NCBI GenBank assembly: GCA_026014875.1
Contig: JAOZHO010000015.1
Location: 1 to 64,000, forward strand
Direction: 5' to 3'
Length of the DNA: 64,000 bases
From: Candidatus Bathyarchaeota archaeon
GTDB lineage: Archaea; Thermoproteota; Bathyarchaeia; TCS64
The notes under the pieces are model-generated. The model had not been told where the DNA came from and did not search any database. It saw only the letters and a list, made by a program, of their open reading frames with translations. The position numbers and the translations under genes were made by a program. Positions within the stretch are counted from its first letter, which is position 1; the number at the start of each line of letters is the position of its first letter. This document shows, piece by piece, positions 58,211 through 62,667 of this stretch.

Positions 58211-58666
58211 TCAATCGACCCTCTTCATGAGCTCGTGGAAGCTGATGCCCCCCCCGATCCTGAGGGAGTAATCGCCTGTCTTCTCGGGTATCATGAAGAC
58301 CCAGCCCTTGTACCTGAACTTGGCTGCGAGGATTGCGTAGCGTCTGGGGTAGATCTTGTGGATGTCGAGGAACTCGAAGAGCTTGGTCACCTGCTTCCTC
58401 TTGTAGTAGACGTAGCGTACCTGGCTCTTCACCTCGCAGGAGAGGATGGTCTTGTCCTTGATCGCGAAGACGTCTGGGAGAGGCTCGTTGCTGGGGGCGC
58501 TCACGGGGATCCGGAGGGCGTGGAAACCCGCACCTCGGAACTTCTTCACGAGCTCCCGCTCGGCGTCGTATCCCCGTTTCTTCATCCTCCTGACCTGGTC
58601 CCGATTGAGGGTACGGGTGAACCGTTGCCGCTTAGGCTTCGCCTTGACCAGGTCTCGGAGGGACAA
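58211..58666 (-). CDS. hjc: Holliday junction resolvase Hjc
   Basis: 151 residues with the archaeal Hjc nuclease plan: KRGYDAERELVKKFRGAGF, HALRIPVSAPSNEPLPDVFAI, then LSCEVKSQVRYVYYKRKQV; the E, D and E-x-K catalytic residues are present. An extra basic N-terminal stretch of about 30 residues precedes the core. It cuts four-way DNA junctions. It lies 11 bases downstream of a winged-helix gene on the same strand. Confidence 0.9.
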   Translation of the reverse strand: MSLRDLVKAKPKRQRFTRTLNRDQVRRMKKRGYDAERELVKKFRGAGFHALRIPVSAPSNEPLPDVFAIKDKTILSCEVKSQVRYVYYKRKQVTKLFEFLDIHKIYPRRYAILAAKFRYKGWVFMIPEKTGDYSLRIGGGISFHELMKRVD

Positions 58667-58677
58667 GGGCTCCCCGC

Positions 58678-58995
58678 CTACTCCTCCTCGGATATCTTGA
58701 GGGCGCCGGTTTCGAGGGGGATCACAGCGAGCTTTAGGACGTCTTTGAGCCAGTCGGAGAAGATGTTGGCGTTGGCGTACTTTTGGTATCGTCTCTTGTG
58801 GGGGACCTTGGTGATCATCCTGAGCTCCACCATCTTGTTGAGGTAGAACTTGGCGGAGGAGCGGCTGATGTCGCAGATCCGGGCCAGGTCTCCGCTCGTG
58901 AAGACGGGGTCGAGGTGTGCGTATGCTACGATGACCTTGGCGGGTAGGGAGAAGGTCTTCTCGACGATGGTCACGAGCGCGTTTTCCTTTGACAT
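58678..58995 (-). CDS. Winged-helix transcriptional regulator
   Basis: 105 residues. The DNA-binding region is VIVAYAHLDPVFTSGDLARICDI (in part), the recognition helix SRSSAKFYLNKMVELRMITK and a basic wing HKRRYQKYANAN. It lies upstream of hjc in the same unit. A TATA-like CGATATAATCC and an inverted repeat TCCCTG-N6-CAGGGA directly before its start suggest self-regulation. Confidence 0.7.
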   Translation of the reverse strand: MSKENALVTIVEKTFSLPAKVIVAYAHLDPVFTSGDLARICDISRSSAKFYLNKMVELRMITKVPHKRRYQKYANANIFSDWLKDVLKLAVIPLETGALKISEEE

Positions 58996-59038: not shown

Positions 59039-59156
59039 AATAAAAAGGGGGTTGGGCTCGCTCGATGAGGGGCCGGTGGGGCAGACCGTTCTGGGCGTGC
59101 ATACTGTTCCCGGCCTGATCGAAGACCACTGACTGAGAAGAGTCCATCACGCCGTC
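59039..59156 (-). pseudogene. Diverged copy of the argF 3' end (left direct repeat)
   Basis: The minus strand reads DGVMDSSQSVVFDQAGNSMHAQNGL, here cut as DGVMDSSQSVVFDQAG and NSMHAQNGL, nearly the argF C-terminus (DGVMDSPQSVVFDQAG, NRMHAQNGL). Over 59070-59156 against 60455-60541, about 85 percent of bases match, and the likeness continues weakly into the oligo-T terminator. The stop codon and last residues are degraded. It is in direct orientation, about 1.4 kb from the intact copy. Confidence 0.8.
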
Positions 59157-59245
59157 GCACGCGCGAAATCTTTGAACAGGGTTTTAGTTTGCGGGTATAA
59201 TAAAACTTATTCGATGATGTGTCCCATACAATGGAGGGATAAAAC

Positions 59246-60313
59246 TTGGGGTCTTTTAATTTAAGGACTATCTCCATCGCTGTTGTTATCTCACTCATAG
59301 TAGGAGCCGGGGCGGGATACATGGTTGGCAATTCACCCGTATCGAGTTTAATAGAAGAGAAAGACGGGCTAGAGGCAGAATATGATTCCTTAGATTTGAT
59401 CTTTCAAAGCCTTGAAGCCGAGTTAGATTCTACTCAGGAGTTGCTTGTTAAAGAACAGAAAGACAATGCACTTCTTCAAGAGAGATATCTGGAAATGCTT
59501 GCGCTTGATCAGGAAAACCAATTGCTTAAACAACAGGTTATCGACCTTGAATCGGAGATAACTAGCCTGCAAAATTCATATGATGAACTTGAAATAGAAA
59601 ATGAAGAAATTGATAATCTAAAAATGCAACTGGAATCCTTGAATGAGACATATCAAGAGCTTATTCTCGCATATTCTTCAAAGTTCGTAATTTCTGACCT
59701 CGAAGTTAATCCAGAGGAAATTGAAATCAACCAACCAGTCACAATATCTGTTATTATTCAAAATATAGGCGGTCTGGAGGGCAGTTACAATCTACAATTA
59801 AAAATTGGCGATATCTTAGAGGCCTCAAAAGAAGTAACTCTTATTGGCGGTGAATCTATAACAACATCATTTGATGTGATTAAAGACGAGGCAAACACAT
59901 ATAATTTTACATTAAATGGTTTTTCAGGAACCTTCAAGTTTATTAGACCATTATGGTGTGAAATTGGACTTCCTTATGTAGCTCCTGATGGCTTAACGGT
60001 TACATTAACAAGTCTAACAATTACAGAAAAAGTAGGAAGCTATCAATATACAATTTGGTATACACTGAAAAATGAACAGCCAGACAGGGCAATAGATGAG
60101 GGTACCTTTAAAATGTACTATGAAAGCGAATCTGGTGGCCTACCTCAATATGGCTTCTTCGGAATTTTATTCCCTGGTGATTCATTATCCAGAACTTATA
60201 CCTTTGAAGAATTAAAAGGTAAACTGTTCGGTATATTAGCATACCATCACGAACAATTCTTCAGCTCAGAACCTTTAGAAGATTCTCTCAAATGGAAAGT
60301 TGAAATCCCTTAG
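59246..60313 (+). CDS. Secreted coiled-coil protein with CARDB-like domain, on an AT-rich island
   Basis: 355 residues starting at TTG with GGAGG upstream. A hydrophobic N-terminal anchor (ISIAVVISLIVGAGAGYMVG) is followed by a long coiled coil (about residues 33-150). A beta domain like CARDB/archaeal adhesion domains follows (SDLEVNPEEIEINQPVTISV, QNIGGLEGSYNLQLKIGD), then a second beta domain. The DNA is far more AT-rich than argF or hjc and codon use differs (many AAT, ATA, AGA). It is flanked by direct repeats of the argF 3' end. Function unknown; a surface protein is likely. Confidence 0.7.
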   Translation: MGSFNLRTISIAVVISLIVGAGAGYMVGNSPVSSLIEEKDGLEAEYDSLDLIFQSLEAELDSTQELLVKEQKDNALLQERYLEMLALDQENQLLKQQVIDLESEITSLQNSYDELEIENEEIDNLKMQLESLNETYQELILAYSSKFVISDLEVNPEEIEINQPVTISVIIQNIGGLEGSYNLQLKIGDILEASKEVTLIGGESITTSFDVIKDEANTYNFTLNGFSGTFKFIRPLWCEIGLPYVAPDGLTVTLTSLTITEKVGSYQYTIWYTLKNEQPDRAIDEGTFKMYYESESGGLPQYGFFGILFPGDSLSRTYTFEELKGKLFGILAYHHEQFFSSEPLEDSLKWKVEIP

Positions 60314-60428
60314 ATCAAACTCTTCCCTTTTTTCTCGTAAGTTTTGAGTGGTGATATACCCCCTGGAAAATCAGCAAACAGGGCTTTTTCTCTTCGCGCG
60401 CGTTCGCGAGTGACTAAAACACTCAAAT

Positions 60429-60435
60429 AAAAAAA
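60429..60435 (-). terminator. Oligo-T terminator of argF
   Basis: Seven consecutive T on the minus strand, 5 bases after the argF stop codon. A matching degraded tract is present in the left repeat near 59042-59046. Confidence 0.4.
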
Positions 60436-60439
60436 GGGA

Positions 60440-61354
60440 TTATTGTTCATTAAGGAGCCAGTGGAGCAGCCCGTTCTGGGCGTGCATCCTGTTCCCCGCC
60501 TGGTCGAAGACCACCGACTGCGGGGAGTCCATCACACCGTCTGTGATCTCGTAGCCCCTGTGGGCTGGTAGGCAGTGCATCACGATGCAGTCGGGCTCTG
60601 CCTTCTTGACGAGCGCCATGTCCACTTTGAACGGGGGGAAGGCCTCCATCCGCATCTTCGCCTCCTCCTCCATACCTGCGCTGATCCAGACGTCGGTGTA
60701 GATGACGTCCGCCCCGGCGACGCCCTTAGCGGGGTCATGGGAGACCTCGACTACTCCTCCGGAGTGTTCCTTGATCTTCGCCAGTATCTCGGGGTTGGGG
60801 CTGTACTTGGGGTTATCGGGGCAGACCACTGTGACGTCCATGCCGACGCTGCTGCAGCCGATCATGGTGGAGTTCGCGGTGTTGCATCCCCCGTCCCCCA
60901 CGTAGGCGATCTTGAGCCCCTCCAGCTTCCCCTTGTACTCCTGGATGGTGAGGAGGTCCGCGAGGTTCTGGCAGGGGTGATAGGCTTCGGTCATCCCGTT
61001 GATTATGGGTATCGTGGCGGCTGCCCCGATCCTCTCCACGGCCTCATGCTTCAGGGCCCGGATCATGACGACGTCCACGTACTTGTTCAGGTTCTTCACG
61101 CCGTCCTCCAGGGTCTCGCTCCGGGTGAACTTGCCCCCCTCGATGCTGTAGAATATCGCGTGGCCCCCCAGGCGGTTCATCCCGGCCTCGAAGCTGATCC
61201 GGGTCCTCAGGGACGGTAACTCGAAGAGCATTATCAGCGTCTTGTTCTTCATGGAGTCGCCGTATTTCCCGGGGTTCGCCTTTATCTCGGTGGAGAGGTT
61301 CAGTATCTCGTGGATCTGGTCCTTGGTCAGGTCGAAATCTGTTAACAGATGCAT
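60440..61354 (-). CDS. argF: Ornithine carbamoyltransferase
   Basis: 304 residues. It makes citrulline from ornithine and carbamoyl phosphate. Motifs: the carbamoyl-phosphate loop LPSLRTRISFEAGM (usual STRTR), MIRALKHEAVERI, the HPCQNLADLL segment, VGDGGCNTANS, and the catalytic cysteine in MHCLPAHRGYEI. It is downstream of argG on the same strand (50 bases). A diverged copy of its last about 30 codons lies 1.4 kb beyond, across an AT-rich insert. Confidence 0.94.
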   Translation of the reverse strand: MHLLTDFDLTKDQIHEILNLSTEIKANPGKYGDSMKNKTLIMLFELPSLRTRISFEAGMNRLGGHAIFYSIEGGKFTRSETLEDGVKNLNKYVDVVMIRALKHEAVERIGAAATIPIINGMTEAYHPCQNLADLLTIQEYKGKLEGLKIAYVGDGGCNTANSTMIGCSSVGMDVTVVCPDNPKYSPNPEILAKIKEHSGGVVEVSHDPAKGVAGADVIYTDVWISAGMEEEAKMRMEAFPPFKVDMALVKKAEPDCIVMHCLPAHRGYEITDGVMDSPQSVVFDQAGNRMHAQNGLLHWLLNEQ

Positions 61355-61404: not shown

Positions 61405-62667
61405 TCAAGAGTCCCCCGTGGGCACGGGGACCACCTTCTTCTTGAGTTCCGGGATTCCCTCGTCCGCGATCTTCCGTTTCAGGTTCCAGGCCGAGACGCT
61501 GGGGAGCCCCCAGAGGTTGATGAATCCCACGGCGTCTCCCTGGTCGTAGTGGGTGTTGATGTCGAAGCTCGCCAGGTTATAGTCGTAGAGGCTGAAAGGC
61601 GACTCCCGGGCCACGGGCTTCGCGGCGCCCTTGAAGAGTTTCATGGTCACCACCCCGGTGACGTTCTGCTGGGTGCTGTCGATGAATGCGTCCAGGTCCT
61701 GCTTGAAGGGGTCGATCCAGAGCCCCTGGTAGACGATGCTGGCCCAGGTGTGCTCCACCTGGAACTTGAAGGCCTTCTGATGCTTGGTGAGCACCATCTT
61801 CTCCAAGTCCTGGTGAGCGTTGATTATGATCTCGGCGGCGGGGATCTCGTAGGTCTCCCGGGTCTTCAGGCCGACCACGCGGTCCTCCATGTGCTCGATC
61901 CTCCCAATCCCGTGCTCTCCCCCCTTCTTGTTGAGCAGCTGGAGTATCTCAACGGGGCCGGTGTCCTCTCCGTCGATGCTGGAGGGCACCCCCTCGTGGA
62001 AACCGATCTTCACGTACTCGGGCACATCGGGGGCGTCCTCGATGTCGACGGTCCACTCCCAGACTCCCTCGTCTGGAACCATCTGGTCGGGATGCTCCAG
62101 GATTCCCCCCTCGATGCTCCTGCCCCAAAGGTTCTGGTCGACGCTGTAGGGGCTGTCCACAGTCACGGGAATGGGGATCCCGTGCTCCTTGGCCCACTCG
62201 ATCTGGCCGTTCCTGTCGAATTTCCACTCCCTGACGGGGGCGATGATCTGGAGGCCGGGGTTCAGCGCCTTGAAGGTGAGGTCGAACCTGACCTGGTCGT
62301 TCCCTTTCCCCGTGCATCCGTGGGCCACCGCATCCGCGTCCTCCATCTCAGCCACCTCCACCACCTTCTTGGCGATGAGGGGCCTGCTGAGGCTGCTGCT
62401 AACGGGATAGGTGCCCATGTAGAGGGCGTTGGCCTTCACGGCCGGGAAGACGTATTCCCTCGCGAACTCCTCCTTCCCGTCGAATGTGTAGTGGTTGAGG
62501 ACTCCGAGGCTCCAGGCCTTCTCCTCCACCTCCTTGAGATCCGTCTGCTGCCCCACGTCCATGATGCAGCTGATTACGTCCATCCCGTACTCCGCCTGGA
62601 TCCACTTCAACATCATGGATGTGTCCAGGCCGCCGGAGTAGGCGAGGACGACTTTCTTCTTGACCAT
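61405..62667 (-). CDS. argG: Argininosuccinate synthase
   Basis: 420 residues. It joins citrulline and aspartate with ATP. The PP-loop is VLAYSGGLDTSMMLKWIQ. Other motifs are AHGCTGKGNDQVRFDL, DSPYSVDQNLWGRSIEGG and SPFSLYDYNLASFD. It is first in the argG-argF unit and divergent from an ACT-domain gene. argH is not in the window. Confidence 0.95.
   Translation of the reverse strand: MVKKKVVLAYSGGLDTSMMLKWIQAEYGMDVISCIMDVGQQTDLKEVEEKAWSLGVLNHYTFDGKEEFAREYVFPAVKANALYMGTYPVSSSLSRPLIAKKVVEVAEMEDADAVAHGCTGKGNDQVRFDLTFKALNPGLQIIAPVREWKFDRNGQIEWAKEHGIPIPVTVDSPYSVDQNLWGRSIEGGILEHPDQMVPDEGVWEWTVDIEDAPDVPEYVKIGFHEGVPSSIDGEDTGPVEILQLLNKKGGEHGIGRIEHMEDRVVGLKTRETYEIPAAEIIINAHQDLEKMVLTKHQKAFKFQVEHTWASIVYQGLWIDPFKQDLDAFIDSTQQNVTGVVTMKLFKGAAKPVARESPFSLYDYNLASFDINTHYDQGDAVGFINLWGLPSVSAWNLKRKIADEGIPELKKKVVPVPTGDS

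Follow-up and report, generated by a model that had tools for sequence, protein, structure and literature searches.

Two kinds of described system come closest to the arrangement discussed here. Of 68 mapped integrated elements of the Thaumarchaeota, 14 lie in the 3′-distal parts of protein genes, one of which replaces the stop codon with its own, and the att sites of crenarchaeal elements are given as spanning 29–69 bp (PMC6563490). Gene ends can also be duplicated through homology. In E. coli, a single crossover between a circle and the chromosome leaves partial duplications of 109–950 bp (PMC3240628), and the stranded gene pieces at Vibrio T6SS and Rhs loci have been explained by homology-facilitated illegitimate recombination (PMC5361080). 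The locus described here lies within a 64-kb stretch of a metagenome-assembled bathyarchaeal genome (the window, meaning the whole stretch analyzed) and has features of both, in that a partial duplication of an anchor gene, argF, flanks foreign-looking DNA in the form of a repeat and an island.

The argF gene (60440..61354, minus strand), recognized from the list of open reading frames and an ortholog search, is intact and encodes an ornithine carbamoyltransferase (OTC) of 304 aa (Pfam OTCace; 60% GC) that closes with LNEQ-stop. Codons 272–300 of this gene (60453..60541, minus strand), which start just past the conserved OTC motif IVMHCLPAHRGYEIT (residues 257–271), are matched without gaps and in direct orientation by 59068..59156 (minus strand) at an offset of 1385, with 77/89 bases identical; the last 13 bases of argF (60440–60452) fall outside the repeat. 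A blastn search within the 64-kb window recovers the pair at E = 4e-26, and the runner-up ungapped match to the segment in the same window reaches 46/89. The first-pass annotation had placed a match of about 85% between 59070–59156 and 60455–60541, and the alignment agrees (75/87). It was also right to call the right copy the intact argF end and the left copy degraded, as the latter carries disabling, nonsynonymous changes (P>S, R>S, L>P, W>R, L>P) with no argF stop; this remnant of the old argF 3′ end is dead, a pseudogene fragment. That annotation had counted a complete second argF at the left repeat as evidence against integration, and none was seen in this genome. Arg-cluster or argF sequence is otherwise missing to the left of the repeat, where similarity stops at 59156, and in a whole-genome search the left-side argF sequence covers only codons ~268–301.

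Beyond 59156 and 60541 the similarity between the copies is immediately at background, and towards the stop it fades across the last four codons. Because the break at codon 272 is sharp, decay by point mutation alone is disfavored. The differences are distributed 2/2/8 over codon positions 1/2/3, with eight third-position differences observed against approximately four expected from post-insertion decay alone. This distribution hints that both argF ends were formerly under selection in separate lineages, though the sample is too small to decide.

The position of the left copy can be read against the gene order argG-argF-HTH-hjc-lon found in Bathyarchaeia relatives. In the window, argG (61405..62667, minus strand) anchors the synteny on the argF side, and on the other side are HTH, a small winged-helix gene (58678..58995, minus strand) by which the native site of the left copy is recognized, and the Holliday-junction resolvase gene hjc (58211..58666, minus strand; Pfam Hjc), a second anchor and a normal archaeal gene outside the insert. 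The empty site that the first-pass annotation had proposed seeking in the argF-hjc interval is present in several relatives, with HTH directly after argF and no more than some tens of bases between them in G006 (copy a), G010, G026, G028, and G029; in G009 and G014 the gap is ~180–190 bp. Against G006 copy a, the left copy and its flank align with only single-base gaps, beginning in the argF end and continuing across the HTH promoter. Because it is continuous with this promoter region and sits at the native site of the relatives, the left copy represents the original argF end, still where it was ancestrally, and therefore the functional right end and the 37.5%-GC island are the addition. Alignment with G006 and others continues the old end through 59058..59067 (minus strand; CTC ATC GAG CGA), and the CGA at 59058–59060, near the stop position of argF in the relatives, is most simply a mutated TGA and a probable stop loss. 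The functional right end is the newly joined one, and it may have an outside origin. A foreign source was also looked for in the right end itself, where third-position identity between the window and G016 is high (83%) but inside the range of other pairs and thus gives no sign of a foreign origin. Codons 1–256 of argF are native-looking for the genus throughout, with no mosaic signal.

Close relatives show an unstable argF-HTH junction, and several of them have a disrupted or changed argF end, with no integrase in the stretches examined. In G016 a secreted-protein-like ORF and an HTH regulator separate argF from HTH and no argF repeat is present, the extra genes at argF in G025 are carAB, and a different gene lies upstream of HTH in G012. 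In G001, from the same genus, argF and HTH-hjc are on separate contigs and a peptidase gene precedes HTH, and the contigs of G002, G005, and G007 terminate at or near the junction. G006 (CP070784) carries two argG-argF copies; in one the native end lies next to HTH, and the other (copy b) has a new end. The argF genes of G001 and G006b have in common another type of 3′ part, in which 15 residues are inserted where the conserved motif IVMHCLPAHRGYEIT begins, just before HCLP, and these altered ends join at residues 256–259, compared with codon 272 in the window. Over 155 bp the tails of the two genes reach 80% identity, compared with ~70% for the gene bodies, which group with different relatives. 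The tail reads KVDLxKxPIVMHCLPAHRGYEITDE... (L045 6214–7173, L048 7923–8876) and is foreign-looking; this type was found nowhere else among 257 genomes of the class at E 1e-20. An ancient argGF paralogy, in which the right end would descend from copy 2 and the left from copy 1, was considered and rejected, as the window groups with G001, and the two G006 copies with one another, in trees of argF codons 1–256 and of argG alike.

Between the old and new argF ends lies an AT-rich island of 1283 bp (59157..60439; 37.5% GC). AT-richness alone does not make the island unique because the window has further AT-rich stretches at ~10.7–11.3 kb and 34.5–34.7 kb. The composition of the island is nonetheless foreign relative to the neighboring genes, with a GC3 of 0.31 for its single gene compared with 0.86–0.90 for argF, argG, hjc, lon, and HTH. 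This gene (59246..60313, plus strand; convergent with argF) is the only ORF of the island and encodes a predicted exported, membrane-anchored protein of 355 aa with a coiled coil and a CARDB-like region (Pfam, sub-threshold), matching the earlier description of AT-rich DNA with one secreted coiled-coil gene. The same island was found in none of the relatives compared, and by eye its ends offer only weak CGCG-rich matches, in the wrong order, as terminal inverted repeats. Among relatives, matches to the coiled-coil gene are confined to the CARDB-like part, apart from the N-terminal half, which has a counterpart elsewhere in G016 (contig C58; 63% amino acid and 77% DNA identity). That DNA match begins ~40 bp ahead of the start codon and extends to the end of the coiled coil, after which the C-terminal parts differ. 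Because the G016 match ends in a different C-terminus, the gene likely belongs to a module-swapped family of surface-type proteins that is mobile within these archaea. L104 (592–1980) and the window gene (59246–60313) have the leader, signal/TM segment, and coiled coil in common and unrelated C-terminal parts, and this pair is a probable case of domain swapping in bathyarchaeal surface proteins.

The explanation favored here, tentatively and at somewhat short of an even chance, is homologous recombination, by a single crossover or one-sided, between the chromosome and incoming DNA bearing an argF end. It builds on the repeat, which breaks off sharply upstream, on a left copy that is decayed and lies at the native site, on the empty sites, and on the foreign composition of the insert. 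From the ancestral order argG-argF-HTH-hjc-lon, incoming DNA with an argF 3′ end beside an AT-rich surface-protein gene would have recombined with the resident argF, either within its last ~33 codons or upstream of them. The incoming 3′ end would have become attached to the body of the resident gene, with the incoming gene placed after it, and argF would have stayed functional because of this joining. The resident 3′ end (codons 272 to stop) would have been stranded by the HTH promoter and then have decayed as a pseudogene fragment. The joining may have been a Campbell-type single crossover of a circle, or homology-facilitated illegitimate recombination with an illegitimate second junction; the illegitimate form would have 3–10 bp of microhomology, and none is evident at the left junction (59156/59157). 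On this reconstruction the right end and the island would both have come from outside, in one event, through homologous rather than integrase joining. The homologous route is favored because there is no integrase or mobile gene, the repeat is ordinary coding homology, and the breaks in the relatives vary around the motif.

The first-pass annotation had proposed instead the remnant of an integrating element, specifically one that inserted at the end of a protein gene, or else a decayed tandem duplicate. In the element form considered here, a tyrosine-recombinase-type element would have used the argF 3′ end as attB and brought its own argF end, with the integrase and core genes later lost. The geometry is exactly as expected of such an element, with the repeat confined to the gene end, the frame restored with a new stop, the old end still at its ancestral place beyond the insert, and relatives with an empty site, and the thaumarchaeal and crenarchaeal precedents above point the same way. 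This much of the proposal stands, but the remainder found no counterpart at the locus. As the annotation itself recorded, no integrase lies between the repeats: the single ORF of the 1.28-kb island has no recombinase match, and replication, capsid, and conjugation genes are likewise missing between the repeats. The three PF00589 matches of the genome are outside the island, on the window's own contig, C24, ~83 kb past the window and on contigs C45 and C13. No att-like core is separable from ordinary argF homology. The larger elements that might have been expected at argF in relatives did not appear; the flanks examined hold ordinary chromosomal genes and no larger or integrase-bearing element, and the altered ends of G001 and G006b join away from codon 272. 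Neither the coiled-coil gene (IMG/VR, PLSDB) nor the argF tails (IMG/VR) had relatives in the mobile-element collections searched. Two INPHARED records matching the OTC tail were examined and are uninformative because each is a whole bacterial-type OTC among chromosomal-looking genes. An element remnant is thus unlikely, though it deserves to be kept in view.

A decayed partial or tandem duplication of argF is likewise doubtful. Both ends would be native to the lineage, an AT-rich gene would have been inserted between them, and most of the second copy would have been deleted. Third-position identity between the two repeat copies (21/29) exceeds that between the window genome and G001 over argF codons 1–250 (55%), which dates the separation of the copies to after the divergence from G001, as a duplication would have it. 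G006 offers a possible parallel in its two argG-argF copies, both of which abut 100-N scaffold gaps (L047 6571–6670, L048 7309–7408; CP070784) that would face each other if the copies were in tandem. In a tandem order their topology would be that of the window, except that the second copy would be almost whole. The order of the G006 copies is uncertain, however, because each adjoins a gap, and a tandem order drawn from those gaps could equally reflect mis-scaffolding or a strain mixture. Duplication also requires two to three events, the left copy breaks off abruptly on its upstream side with no gradient of decay, and the island is not composed of arg-cluster sequence.

The flanks of the island raise a further explanation. 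The leader upstream of the coiled-coil gene (59166..59238, plus strand) matches a dispersed bathyarchaeal intergenic repeat, as a linker and a diverged TTAAGCGGTGATG motif, and a second piece of the same repeat (CTCGTAAGTTTTgAGtGGTGATatacCCCCTGGAAAATCAGCaAAcAGGGCTTT) lies downstream of the gene (60335..60388, plus strand), with diverged copies in the window at 59207 and 60344. The consensus from an alignment of the 54 best copies is CTCGTAAGTTTTAAGCGGTGATGCGCCCCA. A 17-base core, allowing at most one mismatch, occurs 12 times in the window genome, 21 times in G013, nine in G012, four each in G002 and G003, and three in G006; it is absent from most other family members, and a control search with the pattern reversed gives 0 occurrences. 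Most copies lie between genes, often in runs of two to three spaced ~40–65 bp apart (loci include L163, L164, L167, L168, and L169), and are patchy among Bathyarchaeia genomes. With no Rfam family and no exact 19-base match in IMG/VR, the repeat is apparently undescribed. Some copies in the window's own genome (L168 3516–3760, L169 2483 and 10753, L172 170–474) have behind them a longer, conserved and RNA-like sequence, GTGCGTGAGGG...GCGGCGGAG...CTCTGGTCA...CGCGTCGTAACCGC...CGCACCCTCACGC, and a second type of conserved stretch reads GGTGGGGAGGGCTAGGGGCC...GGCCGGCAACACTCCCC; from their sequences these look like structured RNAs or mobile hairpins.

A search of relatives with the island DNA returned short right-flank matches in G013 and G012, which are part of the dispersed repeat. 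In G013 both repeat halves are adjacent, right then left, joined through GAAYAGGGYTTT, which is found at both island ends. Aligned with each other, the island ends score 20 against a shuffle maximum of 24, within chance; aligned with the G013 copy they score 70 and 58 against 26 for shuffles, well above it. This hints that the island is a unit cut between two copies of the repeat, and alternatively the accessory genes of these genomes could simply carry the repeat as a leader. Extended to the locus as a whole, the argF 3′ end at IVMHCLPAHRGYEIT would be a recurrent insertion point for accessory DNA in this bathyarchaeal family, with gene units bounded by the dispersed repeat (CTCGTAAGTTTTAAGCGGTGATGCGCCCC) and the island as one cassette, excised and inserted between repeat halves by some recombination system; this wider reading is very unlikely. 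The dispersed repeat family is perhaps the more open question. A chimeric contig, finally, is barely credible: the genome is metagenome-assembled and the G002, G005, and G007 contigs break at or near the junction, but the copies differ at 12/89 bases, the left one is decayed and continuous with orthologous HTH promoter sequence, argF is intact, and the window contains zero Ns.

Should recombination with incoming DNA be the correct explanation, this single locus from one metagenome-assembled genome would be a datable case of an uncultured archaeon gaining one accessory gene with no mobile element left behind. The conserved gene end would have served as a landing pad and the old end would be its scar, and a systematic search for scars of this kind could serve to trace gene gain.

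Compared with thaumarchaeal iMGEs in the 3′ parts of protein genes (e.g., NitEve-E2), as far as these are covered in the portion of PMC6563490 drawn on here, the window locus is alike in its direct repeats, the reconstituted frame with a new stop, the empty site, and the conserved gene 3′ end. It differs in having no integrase or mobile genes, an insert of only 1.3 kb, and a repeat of 89 bp at 87% where iMGE att sites are mostly short, and argF is absent from the iMGE targets named there. Set against the Vibrio T6SS effector/immunity arrays and Rhs orphan ends (PMC5361080, PMC3240628), the locus has a housekeeping enzyme in an archaeon as its anchor instead of a toxin gene, and there is no second array member. 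The likeness to these systems is in the outcome: the conserved 5′ part of the gene is kept, a new 3′ end and an accessory gene are inserted, and the old end or neighbor is stranded downstream, a displacement for which no recombinase gene is needed.
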